Shown: piece by piece, positions 1 through 9,794 of the stretch | Numbering within the stretch: position 1 is the first letter of the stretch | How the letters are laid out: each line of letters begins with the position of its first letter | DNA from: Nitrospinota bacterium | Lineage (GTDB): Bacteria; Tectomicrobia; Entotheonellia; J063 | DNA length: 10,574 nt | Reading direction: 5' to 3' | Assembly: GCA_003696125.1 (NCBI GenBank) | Contig: RFHZ01000431.1 | Coordinates: 1-10,574 of the forward strand | Program-made: the position numbers and the translations under genes | The notes under the pieces: model-generated | Told to the model about the DNA's origin: nothing | The model's database searches: none | What the model saw: only the letters and a program-made list of their open reading frames with translations

Positions 1-390
1 GCCCACACCCATGTCACCCTTCACTATACCTCTTCTTCTCTCCTTCCCCCCCTGGTAGCCGACGAGAATCAGATCCGGCAGATGCTGATCAATCTCCTGT
101 TGAACGCGATCCAGGCTCAACCCGATGGAGGTGCTGTGTTCATCTCGACGCATTACGATCCGCAGAGGCAGATCATCCATCTTGTAGTCCAGGACAAGGG
201 ACCAGGCATTGCCCAGGAGCAGATCTCCGAGATCTGGAAACCGTTTTTCACCACCAAAGAGACCGGCACGGGACTGGGACTGGCGATTGTACACCGTATT
301 GTCCAAGACCATAGAGGAACCATTACCTGCGTCTCCGAACCAGGCAAAGGGGCGTGTTTTCAGGTCTCCCTCCCGGTGGAGTCTTCCTGA
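1..390 (+). CDS. Sensor histidine kinase, C-terminal ATPase domain (5' partial)
   Basis: The reading frame is open from the first base, so the gene begins upstream; 129 residues are visible. They form the HATPase_c domain of a sensor kinase: an N-box (NLLLNA, from base 94), a G1 box (DKGPGI), the F-box PFFTTKE and a G2 box with TGTGLGLAIV, ending in a normal C-terminal strand. The protein would autophosphorylate on a histidine that is not in view and pass the phosphate to a response regulator. The NtrC-like regulator that starts 57 bp downstream on the same strand is the obvious partner. The PFFTTKETGTGLGLAI wording is typical of NtrB/AtoS-like kinases that pair with sigma-54 activators. The sensing domain, and so the signal and any membrane segments, lie outside the window. 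Confidence 0.93.
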   Translation, partial: AHTHVTLHYTSSSLLPPLVADENQIRQMLINLLLNAIQAQPDGGAVFISTHYDPQRQIIHLVVQDKGPGIAQEQISEIWKPFFTTKETGTGLGLAIVHRIVQDHRGTITCVSEPGKGACFQVSLPVESS

Positions 391-447
391 TAATATCGCT
401 CTCCCAGGCCGGAGAGGGAGAATCGCATGGGGGGAGGGGAGGAAAGG

Positions 448-1794
448 ATGGCGGTAACCGTTCTGATCGTCGAGGATGATGAGAATACCCGGAAGAGCCT
501 GGGTATGGCTCTGGAAGAAGATGGGTACTTGGTGCGTCTGGCCTCGAGTGCAGAAGCAGCGCTCAAGGTATTACAGGAGGAGATCGTCGATGCGGTGATC
601 ACCGATATCGTGATGGGCAAGATGAGCGGTATGGACCTGCTGGACTATATCTTTCACAATAAGATAGACACGGTGGTGATCGTGGTCACCGGGTACGGCA
701 CGATCGAATCGGCAGTGGAAGCGATGCGGAAAGGAGCCTATGACTATATCACCAAGCCGATCGATATCGAGAAGCTGAGCCTCCTCATCCAGAAAGGGGT
801 AGCCAGCCAGCAACTCGTCCTGGAGAATAAGGCGCTCAAGCAACAGCTCCGGGATCGCTTCTCCCTGACCAACATTGTGGGGAAGTCCCCGGCCGTACAA
901 CGCCTGCTCTATCAGATAGAGCAGGTGGCTGCAACCGATGTCACCGTGCTGATCCGGGGAGAGAGTGGTACCGGCAAAGAGCTGATTGCCGAAGCGATTC
1001 ATTATAACAGTCTTCGTGCCGACAAACCGCTGATCAAGGTAAACTGTGGGATCTTTGCCGAAGGGGTGGTGGAAAGCGAGCTCTTTGGACATGAACGCGG
1101 GGCCTTTACCGGTGCTGTTCGCCAGAAGAAGGGACGCTTTGAGCTGGCCGACCAGGGGACCCTCTTCCTCGATGAAGTGGGGGAGTTGACCCCCTCTGTC
1201 CAGGTAAAGTTGTTGCGGGTCCTGCAGGATCAGGTCTTTGAAAGGGTAGGAGGAACCGCTTCGATTGCCGTCGATGTCCGACTCCTGGCCGCCACCAATA
1301 AGGATCTGGAGCGAGAAGTGGCTGAGGGTCGTTTTCGTGAAGACCTCTACTATCGTCTGAACGTGGTGAGCGTAGAGGTCCCTCCCCTCCGGGATCGCGT
1401 AGAGGACATCCCCCTCCTGGCCGATTACTTTCTGGAAGTCTTGAATCGGAAGTACCAGAAGCAGGTAACCGGCCTTTCCCGGGAAGCGCTGCAGTGCCTG
1501 TTGCACTATCCATGGCCGGGGAACGTCCGTGAGCTGCGGAACTGCCTGGAGAGCCTCGTGGTCATGGCCAAACGGGGGAGGATCGAGGTGGAAGACCTTC
1601 CCTCTCATATCCGGGGCGATCCCGGGCTACAGAAAATCCGTTTCTCACCCGGGACTTCGTTGCAGGAGATCGAAAAAGAGGCCATCCTCCGTACCTTGCA
1701 TCTGGTAGGGGGCAACAAGACGAAAGCAGCCCAACTGCTAGGTATCGGGGTGAAGACGTTGTACCGCCGGCTGAAAGAATACCAGATCGAATAG
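448..1794 (+). CDS. NtrC-family sigma-54-dependent response regulator
   Basis: The protein has 448 residues and the full NtrC layout. The receiver domain (about 1-120) has the acidic pair D10/D11, phospho-acceptor D53, T81 and K103. The AAA+ domain has a Walker A motif GESGTGKE (171-178), the sigma-54-contacting loop GAFTGA (218-223) and Walker B LFLDE ending at D242-E243. A C-terminal Fis-type helix-turn-helix (about 405-447) contains GGNKTKAAQLLGI. When phosphorylated it should oligomerise and drive open-complex formation by sigma-54 RNA polymerase. I chose the ATG at 448 because a purine-rich ribosome site (GGGGAGGAAAGG) lies just before it and the receiver begins at once. An in-frame ATG at 427 would add seven residues, GGGEER-like, that are really the ribosome site. 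The likely target is the promoter just downstream, since the first of three palindromes overlaps this gene's stop codon. Confidence 0.95.
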   Translation: MAVTVLIVEDDENTRKSLGMALEEDGYLVRLASSAEAALKVLQEEIVDAVITDIVMGKMSGMDLLDYIFHNKIDTVVIVVTGYGTIESAVEAMRKGAYDYITKPIDIEKLSLLIQKGVASQQLVLENKALKQQLRDRFSLTNIVGKSPAVQRLLYQIEQVAATDVTVLIRGESGTGKELIAEAIHYNSLRADKPLIKVNCGIFAEGVVESELFGHERGAFTGAVRQKKGRFELADQGTLFLDEVGELTPSVQVKLLRVLQDQVFERVGGTASIAVDVRLLAATNKDLEREVAEGRFREDLYYRLNVVSVEVPPLRDRVEDIPLLADYFLEVLNRKYQKQVTGLSREALQCLLHYPWPGNVRELRNCLESLVVMAKRGRIEVEDLPSHIRGDPGLQKIRFSPGTSLQEIEKEAILRTLHLVGGNKTKAAQLLGIGVKTLYRRLKEYQIE

Positions 1795-1806
1795 GTCAAT
1801 TTGACC
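1794..1806. promoter_or_regulatory. Palindromic activator site 1 (GGTCA-ATT-TGACC)
   Basis: This is a perfect 5+5 inverted repeat with a 3-bp AT-rich centre. It overlaps the last base of the regulator's stop codon. The same arms recur twice downstream, at 41 and 84 bp. Its centre is about 228 bp upstream of the predicted start of transcription, within the range used by enhancer-type sites of sigma-54 activators. Binding by the adjacent NtrC-like protein is inferred from position and symmetry. Confidence 0.75.
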
Positions 1807-1834
1807 CTTTCCTCCTCTTCTCCCCTCCTCATCT

Positions 1835-1847
1835 GGTCAAAATGACC
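1835..1847. promoter_or_regulatory. Palindromic activator site 2 (GGTCA-AAA-TGACC)
   Basis: This is the second copy of the 13-bp palindrome, with identical arms and only the 3-bp centre changed. It begins 41 bp after site 1, close to four turns of the helix, so both sites face the same side of the DNA. Between the sites the plus strand is almost pure pyrimidine (1805-1830 is uninterrupted C/T), which makes the palindromes stand out. Confidence 0.77.
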
Positions 1848-1877
1848 TTTCTCCCCCTGTTGCCGTTCTCCCCTCCT

Positions 1878-1890
1878 GGTCAATCTGACC
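1878..1890. promoter_or_regulatory. Palindromic activator site 3 (GGTCA-ATC-TGACC)
   Basis: This is the third copy, with the same arms, 43 bp after site 2 and again about four helical turns. Its right edge lies 111 bp before the -24 element at 2002. Three helically phased dimer sites would suit cooperative assembly of a hexameric AAA+ activator. I found no fourth copy between here and the promoter, and no good IHF site. Confidence 0.77.
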
Positions 1891-2001
1891 TTCTCCTCCC
1901 CTCTCCCTGAACCAGATATCCTCTGCTGGCTAAACAGGGATGGAGGGGATAACCGCTGTATTCCTATCGTTTTCCACCCTGACTTCCCTCGGTCCTCCCG
2001 G

Positions 2002-2018
2002 TTGGCATGCAGATTGCT
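2002..2018 (+). promoter_or_regulatory. Sigma-54 (-24/-12) promoter of the bc-type operon
   Basis: TTGGCATGCAGATTGCT matches the sigma-54 consensus YTGGCACGRNNNTTGCW at all but two specified positions. It keeps the essential GG (2004-2005) and GC (2016-2017) with exactly 10 bp between them. Transcription would begin near 2028, giving a leader of about 41 nt to the ATG at 2070. The site lies on the same strand as the operon, downstream of a gene for a sigma-54 activator and of three palindromic sites, and this context greatly raises its credibility. Confidence 0.85.
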
Positions 2019-2069: not shown

Positions 2070-3029
2070 ATGCAGCACTACGGGAGTAAGATGGGAAGAA
2101 TCCTGGGGATCGGTCTTCTCCTCATCCTGGTTTTCATGGGCACAAGTCGTGCCGATGGGCAGGAGGTCCGGGCGGTGAAGGTCCAGCAACCGCCGGCCAT
2201 CGATGGAGAGGTCGAGGCGGTCTGGGCACAGGCCCCCAGCCTCTCTATCCCGGTGGCAGGACCGAGTGGGAGCTTCACCGTGACCATGAAGGCCCTCTAC
2301 ACCGAGAGCGATCTCTACCTCCTCTTCCAATGGCCCGATGCTACCGAGAGCCTGAATCGACTTTATACGTACGACGGCAAGGCCTGGAAGAAGGTCAAGG
2401 GGAACGAGGATCGTTTTAATGTGATGTGGGGAAACAACATCGCAAACTTCAAGAAGATGGGCTGTTTTGCCCTGTGCCATGGGAATGCGATGCACACCAA
2501 TGCGCCAGAGGAACGGGGAGACCTCTGGCACTGGAAAGCCCAGCGGACCAATCCGGCCGGCTATGCCGATGACCAGTACATCGTGCATGAGCCAAAAGAA
2601 CACGAGCCGGGAGAGGTGACCGGCCGGCTGACCGATGCCAAGAGCGGGGGAGGATATCAGGGGAACTGGGATAAAGCGGGGAAGCATCCCCAATACACCT
2701 TTAAATCACCTCCCCCCGACCGCCGTGTCCTCCTGAAAGAGCAGGCCGTTCCCCTGACCGATCTCAGCACCGTTAAGGCGGGAGATATCCTCCCCCGTGA
2801 GGTGCTGGCCAGAGCAGAGGGGAGTCGGGGAGACATCACGGCCAAGGGACGCTGGGCCAACGGTACCTGGACATTGGAACTGCAGCGGGCTCTGGTCACC
2901 GGACACGAGGACGATATTCAATTTGCTGATCTCCACCGTGATTACTACTTCAGCATCTCGGTACACGACAACAGCGGGGAAGCGCATCACTCTTTCGCTA
3001 CCAGGGCTTATAAGCTTGAATTCGAATAG
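2070..3029 (+). CDS. Secreted ethylbenzene-dehydrogenase-type (EB_dh) heme protein with CX3CH motif
   Basis: The protein has 319 residues. The N-terminus is a signal peptide or membrane anchor (hydrophobic stretch about 11-24), so it acts in the periplasm. The body matches the EB_dh heme-binding fold, known from the gamma subunits of DMSO-reductase-family enzymes such as ethylbenzene dehydrogenase and from relatives of nitrite oxidoreductase NxrC. The opening AIDGEVEAVWAQAP strand and the signature DLWHWKAQRTNPAGYADDQ are visible. C132-FAL-C136-H137 is a CX3CH motif that may attach a c-type heme, one residue wider than the classical CXXCH. The start at 2070 has a strong AAAGGAGG (2056-2063) six bases upstream; the ATG at 2091 is an alternative. 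It is the first gene after the sigma-54 promoter. No molybdopterin catalytic subunit lies nearby, so it is probably an electron carrier or accessory subunit for the downstream complex. Confidence 0.8.
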   Translation: MQHYGSKMGRILGIGLLLILVFMGTSRADGQEVRAVKVQQPPAIDGEVEAVWAQAPSLSIPVAGPSGSFTVTMKALYTESDLYLLFQWPDATESLNRLYTYDGKAWKKVKGNEDRFNVMWGNNIANFKKMGCFALCHGNAMHTNAPEERGDLWHWKAQRTNPAGYADDQYIVHEPKEHEPGEVTGRLTDAKSGGGYQGNWDKAGKHPQYTFKSPPPDRRVLLKEQAVPLTDLSTVKAGDILPREVLARAEGSRGDITAKGRWANGTWTLELQRALVTGHEDDIQFADLHRDYYFSISVHDNSGEAHHSFATRAYKLEFE

Positions 3030-3070
3030 CCGGTGTCCGGGCAGGGGAGAATCAAAGAAGGGAGAAGGGG

Positions 3071-5032
3071 ATGAGGGAGCAGCGCTATCGAGTCCGCATA
3101 CCGGACCTGGACTACTACCGGGAGCTGATCAAGTGCCAGGCCGCCTGCCCTATCCACACCAGCGCCGGCTGTTATGTCACGGCCATTGCCAGGGAGGATT
3201 ACGAGGAAGCTTACGCCCTTGCCCGTAAACCCAACCCCTTTGTCTATACCTTAGGGCGGGTCTGTGGTCATCCCTGTGAGGATGCCTGCCGGCGGGGAGA
3301 GTTTGATGCACCGGTTGCCATCTGCGCACTCAAGCGGGTGGCCACCGAGCATCACAACCTGGGACTGGGACACAGTGTAGAGACGGCGGTGGTAAAGAAG
3401 AAAGCGCAGAAGGTGGCCATTGTGGGGGCCGGTCCGGCCGGCTTATCTGCTGCCCATGACCTGGCCCGCATGGGCTACCAGGTGACCGTCTTTGAAGCCT
3501 CGGGGGTGGCTGGAGGGATGTTGAACCTGGGGCTTCCGGTGTACCGGCTCCCTAAAGACATTGTCAAGCTGGAAGTCGATGCCATCTTGCATCTGGGAGT
3601 CGAATTACGACTCCATACTCCCCTGGGACCCCACTTCACCTTGCAGGACCTGCGGCGACAAGGGTACCATGCCATCTTTATCGCCGTGGGTGCCGGGAAG
3701 AGTCGCGATCTGAAGATTGAGGGAGTGGAGCTGGATGGGGTCTTGAAGGGGGTGGAATTCCTCCTCAACATCAACCTCGGCTATCGCGTGGAGCTGGGAG
3801 AGCGGGTGATTGTCATCGGTGGGGGCAACGTGGCCGTCGATGTGGCCCGGTCGGTGGTGCGGCGTATAGAGACGGTCGATATCGTCGATATCGATGAAAT
3901 CAAAGAGACACTGGATATCTATCGAGCCACCCTCCGCCGCCTGCTCGACCAGCATACTCCCAGTGAAGAAGGATTGACCGTGGCGATGGATGCGGCCCGA
4001 TCTGCCTTGCGTCTCGGAGCCAAGGAGGTCCGGATGGTCTGTCTGGAATCGCTAGAAGAGATGCCTGCCCATAAAAAGGAGATCGCGGAAGCACAAAAGG
4101 AAGGGATTCTCCTCTCCCCTTCGCGCGGACCCAAGCGGATCATCGGCCGGGATGGGAAGGTGGTGGGACTGGAAACCATTGCCTGCAGCGCCGTCTTCGA
4201 TCAGCAGGGGCGCTTTAATCCCACCTTTGTCGAGGGGACAGAAGAGGTCATCCCTGCAGATACGATCATCCTGGCGATCGGACAGACCTCAGACTTCAGC
4301 TTCATCCAGGAAGAGGATGGCATTCAGCTCTCCCCCCGTGGAACCATCGCCGTGGATCCGGATACGCTGGCCACCTCGGCTCCCGGGATCTTTGCCGGTG
4401 GAGACGCCGCCTTTGGTCCACGCCTCATCGTCCATGCCATCGCGGATGGGCAAAAAGCGGCGCGAGCGATTGATGCCTTCCTCAGTGGTGGGGAAAAGCG
4501 GTGGAAGACCGTTGCTCGCTTCCATCCCCTCCCACACCATCGGATGCCGGAACACTATCTGGAGATCGGTCGGCACGAGATGCCCACCCTCCCTTTGAAC
4601 CGGAGGGTGGGCATCGCCGAGGTGGAACTGGGGTTTGCTGACGCGGATGCGGTGGAAGAGGGGAAGCGCTGCTTACAATGCTTTATCAATCCGATCTTTG
4701 ATGGAGACAAATGCATCCTCTGTGGTGGCTGTGTCGATGTCTGCCCGGAGAACTGCCTCCGGTTGGTACGCATCCAGGATCTAGAAGGGGACGAGGACCT
4801 GGAGAGGCTCTTACAGATCCGATACGGGGGGGAGGAGATCTCCCTACAACCCGACTTAAGCTCATGGCCGGTAGAGGGAAGCGCCATGCTCAAAGAGGAG
4901 GATCGATGCATCCGGTGCGGTCTCTGTGCCTTACGTTGCCCTACCGGTGCGATCAGTATGGAGTTCTTTGAGTGGCAAGAGCGGGTGGAGCGCGCTCCCC
5001 ATCCGGGTGATAAGGGAGGGGAAGAGGGATGA
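3071..5032 (+). CDS. FAD/NAD(P)-dependent oxidoreductase with [4Fe-4S] domains (GltD/NfnB-like core)
   Basis: The protein has 653 residues, with no signal peptide or membrane span, so it is cytoplasmic. The N-terminal Fe-S domain has C22, C26, C34 and C65-x3-C69-x3-C73, as in the dihydropyrimidine dehydrogenase/GltD family. The FAD fold has G119-AG-PAG and a closing [12 protein letters not shown] segment. The NAD(P) fold has GGGN at 250-253. A C-terminal 2x[4Fe-4S] ferredoxin module has C548/551/554/558 and C613/616/619/623. Such proteins move electrons between NAD(P)H, flavin and Fe-S clusters. Placed directly before cytochrome b, with an ATGA stop-start overlap, it is probably a peripheral subunit linking the bc-type complex to the NAD(P)H or ferredoxin pool; the direction of electron flow cannot be told. 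Residues 266-303 carry an insertion not expected in GltD. The start has GAAGGGAG six bases upstream. Confidence 0.88.
3875..3892 (+). repeat. 9-bp perfect tandem duplication inside the oxidoreductase gene
   Basis: GTCGATATC occurs twice back to back and is followed by GATGA, encoding VDIVDID. It lies inside the insertion in the NAD(P)-binding fold and keeps the frame. It looks like a replication-slippage duplication. Confidence 0.85.
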
Positions 5033-6300
5033 GGTCGATGGAGGAAACAGGCCGTCTGGCCCGGATAACCCATTCTCCTGTCTGGAAGTCGATCTTCCGT
5101 CACGGCTATTCTGGAAGCGAGCTGGATAGAGCCCAGACCGTGTTTACCAATTTCTTCCTCCATATCCACCCAGTGAAAGTACGCAGAGAAACTCTAGAGT
5201 TTCGACACACCTTTTATCTGGGTGGTCTCGCCTTTCTTCTCTTCCTCCTCCTGCTGGTCACGGGAATCCTCCTCATGTTCTACTATGTCCCATCCGTGGA
5301 GCGGGCGTATCAGAGCATGCTGGGACTACAGACCGCCGTGGTCTTTGGTGTCTTTTTGCGCAACCTCCACCGCTGGTCGGCCCATGCCATGGTGGTGGTC
5401 GTGTTTCTGCACATGTGCCGGGTGTTTTATGGCGGAGCGTATAAGACCCCACGCGAATTCAACTGGGTGGTGGGGGTCATCCTCCTGGGACTCACCCTCT
5501 TCCTGAGCTTTACCGGATACCTGCTCCCCTGGGATCAACTGGCCTACTGGGCCATCACGGTCGGTACCAGCATCGCCGGCTATATCCCGGTGGTAGGGAA
5601 AAGCCTCCGACAGCTCCTCCTGGGGGGATTAGAGGTGGGACAGGAGACGCTCTTGCGTTTCTATGTGCTCCATGTGGCGGTGCTCCCTCTCCTGTCTGCC
5701 CTCTTCATTGCCATCCACTTCTGGCGCATCCGGAAGGATGGAGGCCTGGCCGAGCCGCTGTACGGCAGGAGAGAAAGGAAGGAAGAGAACAGGCCGTGGC
5801 AAGAGGTATTTCCAGAAAACCCGCAGAAGACCTATGGGCTGATGGCTCTGGTGAAAGGGGTATCCCCGGCCGTGGGAAAGGAGCCGGAGGAGACCGTTTT
5901 CACCGTCCCGTATCTGCTGGTGCTGGAGTTGGTGGGAACCCTGGTGGTCCTCTTTCTCCTGACCCTCGTCTCTATCTTCTTCTCTGCCCCTTTGGAGGAG
6001 TTGGCCAATCCGCTGCATACTCCCAATCCTGCCAAAGCCCCCTGGTACTTCCTGTGGCTGCAGGAACTGGTTTCCCACTCTGCCCTGTACGGGGGGGTGG
6101 TGCTTCCGAGCCTGATCTTCCTTGGCCTGCTCCTCCTCCCTTACCTGGATCGCAAGCCGGAGAGGGAGATGCGGGCACGCATGCTGTTCGTGTTCCCCTT
6201 TACCCTCATCATTATCGCCATAGTCGTGCTGACGATCATCGGTGCCTTTTTCCGCGGGCCGGAGTGGCGGTGGGTCTGGCCCTGGTCGGCAGGAGGATAA
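5029..6300 (+). CDS. Cytochrome b (fused b6/subunit IV type) of a bc-type complex
   Basis: This membrane protein of 423 residues resembles cytochrome b6 in its N-terminal half and subunit IV in its C-terminal half. The four b-heme histidines are present: H114 and H128 (HRWSA...FLH), and H215 and H230. The last pair has 14 residues between them, as in b6 rather than mitochondrial cytochrome b. Other b6 marks are [14 protein letters not shown] and the [15 protein letters not shown] loop. A charged loop of about 60 residues (about 237-300) joins the halves. It should oxidise quinol at the positive side and pass electrons to the Rieske protein. Two departures from b6f are notable. The quinol-site PEWY motif reads APWY (337-340). 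Tyr63 occupies the place of the cysteine that binds heme c-n. The start codon overlaps the upstream stop (ATGA), behind a GGGAGGGG ribosome site, which implies coupled translation. Confidence 0.94.
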
Positions 6301-6320
6301 CCGAAGGGAGGAGAGAAGCG

Positions 6321-6845
6321 GTGAAAAGGGAAGGAGAGGAGCGTTCTCTGCAACAAGGACTTACCCGTAGACGTATTCTCCTGGGGAGCTGGATCGTTGC
6401 CACTCTTGTCCTGCTGGGAGAGGGGATGGCCAGCCTGCTCCGCTACCTGAAACCGAGAACACGGGGGAAATTTGGGGGTGAGATCGTTGCCGGTGTGGTC
6501 ACCGAATTTCCTCCAGGTTCGATCACACACATTCAAAAGGGGAAGTTTTATCTCGTCCATCTGGATAGCGGGTTTCTGGCCATGTGGCACCGTTGTACCC
6601 ATCTGGGGTGTACCGTTCCCTGGAAGGAAGAGGATCAACGCTTTGAATGCCCCTGTCACGGCTCGATTTTTAACAAGAAGGGAGAGGTGCTGAGTGGCCC
6701 TGCGCCGCGTCCTCTCGATCTCTTTCCCCTGCGTATCATCCGGGGACAGATTGTGGTCGATACGGGTCAGGTCATCGAACGCACCCGCTTTGATCCTGCC
6801 CAGACGGTCTCTGCCCACCTGAGGCAAGAACAGGAGAAAGGATGA
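6321..6845 (+). CDS. Rieske [2Fe-2S] iron-sulfur protein
   Basis: The protein has 174 residues. The cluster-binding loops are C92-T-H94-L-G-C97 and C110-P-C112-H113-G. C92, H94, C110 and H113 bind the [2Fe-2S] cluster; C97 and C112 form the usual disulfide. The N-terminus has a twin-arginine stretch (LTRRRILLGSW) before a hydrophobic segment, so it is probably Tat-exported and stays anchored in the membrane with its head in the periplasm. It takes the first electron from quinol and hands it to cytochrome c. I chose the GTG at 6321 because AGGGAGGAG lies seven bases upstream and the gene follows cytochrome b by 20 bp. The same frame stays open back to 5796 inside cytochrome b, but that stretch has no domain and duplicates coding use. 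Confidence 0.95.
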   Translation: MKREGEERSLQQGLTRRRILLGSWIVATLVLLGEGMASLLRYLKPRTRGKFGGEIVAGVVTEFPPGSITHIQKGKFYLVHLDSGFLAMWHRCTHLGCTVPWKEEDQRFECPCHGSIFNKKGEVLSGPAPRPLDLFPLRIIRGQIVVDTGQVIERTRFDPAQTVSAHLRQEQEKG

Positions 6846-6849
6846 GACT

Positions 6850-7824
6850 ATGCCTCGCGATCTTCTGGATTGGGAGCTAGGCCTGGGAACCGTGCTCACT
6901 TTAGGACTGGCTGTACTGATCGGTGCCTACGGATTACGGGAACCGCAACGCCTGGATACAGCCACGGTTCAGCTGCACCGCTCTTCGATTGCCCGGGGGG
7001 CTACCCTCTATCAGCGCTACTGCGTCACCTGTCATGGGGCAAACGGCAAGGGGATTCCCCAGGTAGCTCCGGCATTGAACGATAAGAATTTCCTCGCTAC
7101 CGCCTCCGTAGAGGCCATTACCGATGCCATCACCGATGGACGACCCAATACGGCCATGCCGGCGTGGGGGCAACGGCACGGTGGTCCTCTCAATGCCCAG
7201 CATGTGCAAGATCTGGTGGCTTTTATCCAGAACTGGGAAAAGGCAGAAGTCCGTGTCCCCTCCTCTCCCCTCGTCCAGGGAGACCCGGTCGCCGGCAAGC
7301 GGATTTTTGATCAGGTCTGTTATCTCTGTCATGGAGAGAATGGGGAGGGGGGAGTGGCACCAGCCCTGAATAACCAGGAATTTCTCCGCCGCTATGATGA
7401 TGCCTTTATCCGGGAGACCGTGACCAAAGGACGACCGAGTAAGGGGATGCCCACCTGGGGAAAGGTCTTCTCCGCAGAACAGATCGCCGATGTTACCGCG
7501 TATATTCGAAGCTGGCAGCAGGGAGCAACTCTTCCTTCTCCTTCCCCGGCTTCTGCCCCCGCTGCGGAGTCCTCTTCTGCCGTCGAACGGGGCAAAGCGC
7601 TCTATCAGTCGCTGAACTGCGCTGCCTGTCATCGCATTCAAGGAGAGGGAGGCACCATCGGCCCTGATCTCTCCCATGAGGGGGAAAAGCGAGAAGCGGC
7701 CTGGCTACTCAAGCATTTCCAGGATCCACGCGCTCTCGTTCCCGATTCGGTGATGCCGGCCTTTGGGCATCTCTCTCCTGAAGATCTGGAGGGATTGGTG
7801 GCCTATATGCGCAGTCTGCGGTGA
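6850..7824 (+). CDS. Membrane-anchored triheme cytochrome c
   Basis: The protein has 324 residues. One N-terminal hydrophobic helix (about 9-29) lacks a clear cleavage site, so it probably anchors the protein with its domains in the periplasm. There are three c-heme motifs: CVTCH (58-62), CYLCH (157-161) and CAACH (257-261). Each is followed by a likely methionine ligand, in NTAMPAWG, SKGMPTWG and DSVMPAFG. Domains 1 and 2 are clearly related (VAPALN, GRP...MPxWG, then an aromatic helix), while domain 3 is of a different mono-heme type. A linker rich in Pro, Ser and Ala (about 222-240) separates domains 2 and 3. It begins 4 bp after the Rieske stop. It replaces cytochrome f or c1 as electron acceptor of the complex and may pass electrons directly to a terminal enzyme. 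Confidence 0.93.
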   Translation: MPRDLLDWELGLGTVLTLGLAVLIGAYGLREPQRLDTATVQLHRSSIARGATLYQRYCVTCHGANGKGIPQVAPALNDKNFLATASVEAITDAITDGRPNTAMPAWGQRHGGPLNAQHVQDLVAFIQNWEKAEVRVPSSPLVQGDPVAGKRIFDQVCYLCHGENGEGGVAPALNNQEFLRRYDDAFIRETVTKGRPSKGMPTWGKVFSAEQIADVTAYIRSWQQGATLPSPSPASAPAAESSSAVERGKALYQSLNCAACHRIQGEGGTIGPDLSHEGEKREAAWLLKHFQDPRALVPDSVMPAFGHLSPEDLEGLVAYMRSLR

Positions 7825-8985: not shown

Positions 8986-9125
8986 AAGAGCAGGGGGGCA
9001 GCAGTACATCGATGGTTCTCGTTAGATGCCGTGTTTGTCGCCTTGCCTATTCCCTCAGGGTGTCGCCCTTCCGTGAACGGGTTGCTGGAAGCAAGAATAG
9101 GGACAGGTACAGGAGCAAAGAAGTC

Positions 9126-9794
9126 GTGTCATCGATTCGTGTGTTGCTTGTCGATGATCATACTTTATTCCGGAAAGGGCTTGCCTACCTGTTGTCTCTA
9201 TATCCTGATATCGAGGTGGTGGGCGAGGCAGAGAATGGAGAAGAGGCGATTGCCCGGGCGCAGGAGACGCAGCCTGATGTGATCCTTATGGACATCTATA
9301 TGCCGCGGATGGGCGGGTTAGAGGCTACCCAAAAGATTAAAGCGCTCATGCCCGCCCTGCCGATTGTTATCCTGACCGTATCCGATGATGAGCAGACCCT
9401 CCTGGCAGCGATTAAAAGTGGTGCACAGGGTTACCTGTTAAAGGATATTGCGCCAGAAGAACTGGTGGAGATGCTGCGCGGCATGGCACGAGGTGAAGCC
9501 CCTCTTTCCCGGGCAACTGCAGCAAAGATCCTGGCTGCTTTTTCTCGACAGATACACCAAGATCCTCCTCCCCCTACCCATCACCTGACCCAGCGAGAGC
9601 AGGAAGTATTGAGTTTAGTCGCTCAGGGAGCTACCAACAAAGAGATTGCGCTGGCTCTTCACATCAGTGAGAGCACGGTGAAGAATCACCTCCAGAGCAT
9701 CTTAGAGAAGCTCCACCTGGGGAACAGGGTCCAGGCCGCCACCTATGCCATTCAACACGGTCTACTCGATCCTTTCCCCTCTGAAGAATCCTGA
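9126..9794 (+). CDS. NarL/LuxR-family response regulator
   Basis: The protein has 222 residues in two domains. The receiver has the acidic pair D10/D11, phospho-acceptor D56 in DVILMDIYMP, and the lysine of GYLLKDI. The C-terminal LuxR-type helix-turn-helix has LTQREQEVLSLVAQG and NKEIALALHISESTVKNHL. It should bind DNA when phosphorylated by an unseen sensor kinase; no kinase gene is next to it in the window. I prefer the GTG at 9126 because the receiver begins within four residues and an AGGAG lies ten bases upstream. The same frame is open from an ATG at 9012, which would add 38 basic residues that match no receiver; its ribosome site is poor. The Tat-protein gene 289 bp downstream on the same strand is a possible target, but no binding site could be named. 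Confidence 0.93.
   Translation: MSSIRVLLVDDHTLFRKGLAYLLSLYPDIEVVGEAENGEEAIARAQETQPDVILMDIYMPRMGGLEATQKIKALMPALPIVILTVSDDEQTLLAAIKSGAQGYLLKDIAPEELVEMLRGMARGEAPLSRATAAKILAAFSRQIHQDPPPPTHHLTQREQEVLSLVAQGATNKEIALALHISESTVKNHLQSILEKLHLGNRVQAATYAIQHGLLDPFPSEES

Follow-up and report, generated by a model that had tools for sequence, protein, structure and literature searches.

A putative sigma-54 switch upstream of an NAD(P)-linked Rieske/cytochrome b operon in a Nitrospinota bacterium

What controls the operon at 2070-7824 of this Nitrospinota contig, which encodes a Rieske/cytochrome b complex together with an NAD(P) oxidoreductase and c-type cytochromes? The window, that is, the whole stretch of 10,574 nucleotides analysed here, is one entire contig (C762) of a 4.18-Mb bin (990 contigs, 94.8% complete, 8% contaminated), and upstream of the operon it carries a regulator gene, an array of palindromes and a -24/-12 element. 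Our answer is that a two-component enhancer-binding protein very probably drives the operon through sigma-54, as a local switch.

The control region and its neighbouring regulator

The forward strand of the window begins with the 3' part of a histidine kinase gene (1..390; HATPase_c, PF02518, 1.7e-27), the sensor part of which is lost at the contig edge, and which is likely the cognate sensor kinase of the protein encoded next: an NtrC/AtoC-type response regulator, i.e., an enhancer-binding protein (427..1794, forward strand; PF00072, PF00158, PF25601, and PF02954). The domains and motif residues of the regulator are intact: D60 and K110 in the receiver domain (REC); Walker A GESGTGKE, GAFTGA at residue 225, GTLFLDE, and the lid in the AAA+ domain; and, at the C-terminus, a Fis-type HTH with GIGVKTLYRRLKEYQIE in its helix. 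Its best solved relative, a full-length member of the NtrC family (4l4u, 7e-113), aligns from end to end and has LRTLYRRLKEYGIE in the corresponding position and a nearly identical last helix, LYRRLKEY.

Between this gene and the -24/-12 element lie three 13-bp palindromes, all exact matches and putative activator sites, to which no strand is assigned: GGTCAATTTGACC at 1794-1806, GGTCAAAATGACC at 1835-1847, and GGTCAATCTGACC at 1878-1890. Their GGTCA-N3-TGACC arms are the same in all three, the centres being ATT, AAA, and ATC, and the base after GGTCA is an A in 3/3; the first G of palindrome 1 is also the last base of the TAG stop codon of the regulator. Start-to-start distances are 41 bp (about 3.9 helical turns) between palindromes 1 and 2 and 43 bp (about 4.1 turns) between palindromes 2 and 3, so that palindromes 1 and 3 are separated by 84 bp, or 8.0 turns at 10.5 bp per turn. 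Relative to the predicted transcription start they lie about 145, 188, and 229 bp upstream, as tandem dyads within the 80-250 bp expected of sigma-54 enhancer sites. The triplet is well beyond chance: shuffling the 278-bp intergenic stretch 20,000 times at constant base composition never produced three same-arm N3 palindromes (5 of the shuffles produced two), nor did any of 500 shuffles of the whole window, and when the 300 bp upstream were put through 100 dinucleotide shuffles the score of the best pair was never reached. The sequence at 1807-1905 is strongly pyrimidine-rich on the strand of the downstream gene (CTCCTCCCCTCTCC), as are many intergenic regions of the same genome.

The -24/-12 sigma-54 promoter, TGGCATGCAGATTGCT at 2003-2018 on the forward strand, has one mismatch to TGGCACGN4TTGCW, and its GG (2004-2005) and GC (2016-2017) have the spacing GG-N10-GC. 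A loose scan of the roughly 10-kb window, with 3 mismatches allowed, gave 14 matches where 12.4 were expected, and a lone loose match in 10 kb is thus not significant by itself. In the genome the strict pattern TGGCRYRN4TTGCW has 28 matches against 1 for its reversed control, from which we conclude that the genome uses this promoter type, and the only strict match on this contig is the one at 2003-2018, which therefore fits the organism's own sigma-54 consensus. The genome also encodes rpoN, i.e., sigma-54 itself, as a profile search shows (PF04552, 1.4e-64, contig C633). From the position of the element, transcription is predicted to start near 2028-2029. Several points that a preliminary description of this stretch had made on the region are borne out: its three inverted repeats with identical arms and 41/43-bp spacing are exact matches, its -24/-12 element with exact GG-N10-GC spacing is confirmed at 2003-2018, its reading of that element as a sigma-54 promoter is supported by rpoN and by the 28:1 enrichment, and the adjacent activator to which it had ascribed a GAFTGA motif has the REC, AAA+, and Fis-type HTH domains as well.

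Palindromes and sigma-54 promoters beyond the window

The exact palindrome occurs 30 times in the 4.18 Mb of the genome, against 2 occurrences of the reversed control. With coding or intergenic placement computed on individual genome stretches, the 27 copies outside the window all fall inside open reading frames, and the three in the window are the sole intergenic ones. Genomes of the same class that have no array nevertheless contain 12-23 scattered palindromes, compared with 2-8 for the reversed control; as an excess is seen there too, that of 30 over 2 is mostly an effect of coding sequence and not the mark of a regulon. The 27 scattered copies are therefore background, the three intergenic ones define one locus, and their being the only such copies supports a local regulator with a single target. 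A genome-wide regulon built on the palindrome was considered and rejected, the other exact copies lying in open frames and the relatives showing similar singletons. Since the bin is fragmented and 8% contaminated, an origin of the contig in another organism is conceivable in principle; in sigma-54 promoter type the contig agrees with the remainder of the bin.

The recognition sequence was not found to be conserved at other loci. The preliminary description had made its reading depend on conservation of the palindromes at orthologous loci, an expectation that was disappointed: in 385 other genomes no tandem array was found apart from one unrelated pair (in G284), so that a two-palindrome pattern is present in 2 of 386 genomes including that of the window, and the palindrome is found at 0 of the 10 homologous operon loci. 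The closest DNA-binding helix, with 16/24 residues identical, belongs to a regulator of another genome (G003), within 700 bp downstream of whose gene there is no such palindrome. Activator sites diverge rapidly, and the sample holds no close orthologous locus with this regulator; for these two reasons the missing conservation is missing support rather than refutation. In its exact form the recognition sequence predicted here, GGTCA-N3-TGACC, is a new and putative one.

The layout, by contrast with the sequence, is of a known kind, indeed a textbook one. The genome encodes about 20 sigma-54 activator genes or fragments. Among the loci examined, those of other organisms included, the stop codons of several activator genes unrelated to one another have a strong -24/-12 element roughly 150-260 bp behind them, and then the next gene. 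The order of regulator gene, -24/-12 element, and next gene is repeated on contig C263, tandem TGCACA-N6-TGTGCA palindromes accompany a sigma-54 promoter on C777, and a sigma-54 promoter on C648 has palindrome arms of the GTTAC type. The array of the window can thus be understood as part of a system spanning the genome, with a separate site for each activator. In Desulfovibrio vulgaris, 10 of 13 one-component activator genes lie beside sigma-54 promoters (PMC4641369).

Several details of these loci deserve mention in their own right. On C263 a palindrome, CTGACAGCGCTGTCAG, and a degenerate copy nearby follow the activator gene (3186-4541) and precede the -24/-12 element, itself located before a gene with a Tat signal (RRQF). 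On C777, in the stretch about 210 to 170 bp ahead of a strong -24/-12 element at 7444, there is a second activator-site array, in which TGCACAAAAACCTGTGCA occurs in two exact copies with 21 bp between them, together with an overlapping palindrome. Sequences resembling TGTCCCATTTTGCCACA occur upstream of several sigma-54 promoters (C814, C163), possibly as the site of a multi-target activator. A CA-N3-TG geometry common to all activator sites of the genome, suggested by C831 and C777, was dropped because C263 does not fit it.

The operon and its homologues

The operon consists of five tightly packed genes on the forward strand, with gaps of 41, -4, 20, and 4 bp. The first encodes a signal-peptide-like protein with an EB_dh (haem-binding) domain (2070..3029; PF09459, 2.6e-35), in which a single CX3CH motif, CFALCH, is found rather than the usual CXXCH. 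It is followed by a GltD/NfnA-like FAD-NAD(P) oxidoreductase (3071..5032; PF07992, PF14691, and PF00037) whose C-terminal part has two 4Fe-4S motifs (residues 548 and 613) and whose relatives are the NfnA of 9n5u and glutamate synthase small chains; by a cytochrome b with the N and C domains fused in one chain (5029..6300; PF00033 and PF00032), which scores just above the cut-off of the ExtP model NF040969; by a Rieske 2Fe-2S protein with the motifs CTHLGC and CPCHGS (6321..6845; PF00355), for which 9rk4 and 9rk3 rank first among 79 solved matches; and by a tri-haem c-type cytochrome with CVTCH, CYLCH, and CAACH (6850..7824; PF13442/PF00034 in 3 stretches). At the Qo site of the cytochrome b, PEWY is replaced by KAPWYFL(G/W)(L/I)QE, both in the window and in 8 of 8 homologues checked.

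At least one further cytochrome b cluster of the Rieske/cytochrome b kind is present in the genome: that on C983, a 4.5-kb contig without any -24/-12 match, is split-type and includes a penta-haem protein. The presence of that cluster and of an NAD(P) oxidoreductase in the operon sets the complex of the window apart from a housekeeping bc1/b6f complex, and it is probably an alternative Rieske/cytochrome b complex in conditional use. On both grounds the housekeeping frame, in which the preliminary description had seen bc-type complexes as usually placed, is overstated for this one; the proposal of that description that the operon at 2070-7824 is the target of the switch is supported.

The core of oxidoreductase, Rieske protein, and cytochrome b recurs in ten other loci examined, where the genes stand in that order, as opposed to the window, where cytochrome b precedes the Rieske protein. 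Sigma-54 elements recur at two of these homologues, in genomes unrelated to that of the window. In G091 a kinase and activator pair lies upstream of the locus, where a perfect -24/-12 element is present twice, in one case ahead of a cytochrome c gene that itself precedes the oxidoreductase. In G179 (C4, about 6500-6660) a perfect -24/-12 element lies between the gene of a GAF-type activator and, divergent from it, a hemerythrin-like gene together with the operon of the oxidoreductase. The types of these activators differ, and their distance from the regulator of the window is about that of its own paralogues; judged from three loci compared without a tree, the complex has thus probably come under sigma-54 control on more than one occasion.

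The proposed switch, its alternatives, and known systems

In the mechanism that we infer, the upstream histidine kinase would, upon a signal, phosphorylate the NtrC-type regulator, dimers of which would bind the three GGTCA-N3-TGACC palindromes on one face of the helix. The bound regulator would oligomerise and loop to the sigma-54 RNA polymerase waiting at 2003-2018, ATP hydrolysis acting through the GAFTGA loop would open the promoter, and the open promoter would allow transcription of 2070-7824, i.e., of the NAD(P)-linked Rieske/cytochrome b complex with its c-type cytochromes.

Three other explanations have to be weighed against this switch. The palindromes might be activator sites whose main role is in autoregulation or in a wider regulon, the downstream operon being one target among many. 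The 395 one-mismatch matches in the genome, in which coding and intergenic copies are counted together, would leave room for this, but none of the 27 other exact matches falls outside an open frame, and relatives that lack the array have about as many singletons; we regard this explanation as unlikely. It is rather improbable, too, that the protein binding the palindromes is another regulator, such as the LuxR/NarL-type response regulator that the window also encodes (9012-9794) or one encoded elsewhere, which would modulate the same promoter with the NtrC-type neighbour acting elsewhere. A sigma-54 promoter requires an enhancer-binding protein, and one is encoded immediately upstream; no other clear repeated site was found between the regulator gene and the promoter; and three tandem 13-bp palindromes are the geometry expected for an activator with a Fis-type HTH. 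Against these points stand the presence of a second response regulator in the window and the lack of a downstream site at the regulator with the closest helix (G003).

The -24/-12 element, finally, might be fortuitous, the palindromes serving some other purpose and the operon being read from an undetected promoter of the sigma-70 type or by readthrough from the regulator gene. Kinase, regulator, and operon do lie on one strand with no clear terminator between them, and the loose scan of the window was not above chance; yet the strict pattern is enriched 28:1 in the genome, its only match on the contig is exactly here, and no sigma-70-like site was found at 1700-2120. This explanation we consider highly improbable. 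The local sigma-54 switch driven by the adjacent two-component regulator is accordingly the reading that we retain, and it provides an activator not characterised before with a predicted recognition site, GGTCA-N3-TGACC, and with one predicted target.

The more interesting part, if of modest interest, is the regulated complex and the recurrence of sigma-54 control over NAD(P)-linked Rieske/cytochrome b complexes. Investigated to date chiefly in anammox bacteria, these complexes may be widespread and sigma-54-switched in several lineages, and conditional control would help to decide on their role: making NAD(P)H or serving a particular electron acceptor. Tentatively, we can picture in this sparsely sampled lineage a dedicated two-component sigma-54 switch acting on an NAD(P)H-linked and possibly electron-bifurcating complex; with sigma-54 control attached repeatedly by way of different activators, the complex would be a conditional module for reverse electron transport and no permanent component of respiration. 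We entertain this as a possibility that falls somewhat short of probable.

How does the locus compare with known systems? Activators of the NtrC type are phosphorylated, bind as dimers, oligomerise, and loop to the sigma-54 polymerase, which they open at the expense of ATP. The window shares with the NtrC, ZraR, and AtoC systems the domain order, the GAFTGA motif, tandem palindromes 80-250 bp upstream, and GG-N10-GC; it differs in having three near-perfect sites in a row and in its putative recognition sequence, GGTCA-N3-TGACC. Among bc-type complexes, CbcBA of Geobacter is activated by the sigma-54 regulator BccR and is not known to include an NAD(P) oxidoreductase. CbcBA is a conditionally induced inner-membrane bc-type cytochrome (PMC12307469).

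Sigma-54 control of a membrane redox complex also has a precedent in the Ohc complex of Desulfovibrio, where, as in the window, the gene of an enhancer-binding protein (DVU3142) adjoins the sigma-54 promoter of the complex (ohcBAC, an octahaem cytochrome complex), and where the complex, again as in the window, is a membrane redox complex with c- and b-type haems (PMC4641369). Unlike the complex of the window, Ohc is not a Rieske/cytochrome b complex, and DVU3142, which is divergently transcribed, is listed among one-component regulators (PMC4641369), whereas the regulator of the window is of the two-component type. Similar in composition are the anammox complexes of Kuenenia, Kuste4569-4574 and Kustd1480-1485, in which Rieske protein, cytochrome b, and NAD(P) oxidoreductase are likewise encoded together (PMC12954380); the two solved Rieske proteins nearest to that of the window, 9rk4 and 9rk3, appear from their names and date to be those of Kuenenia. 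The anammox complexes have b6 plus subunit IV in place of one fused cytochrome b chain, and hexa- or octahaem cytochromes in place of the EB_dh protein and tri-haem cytochrome, and for those with the putative NAD(P) oxidoreductase the formation of NAD(P)H by electron bifurcation has been proposed (PMC12954380).
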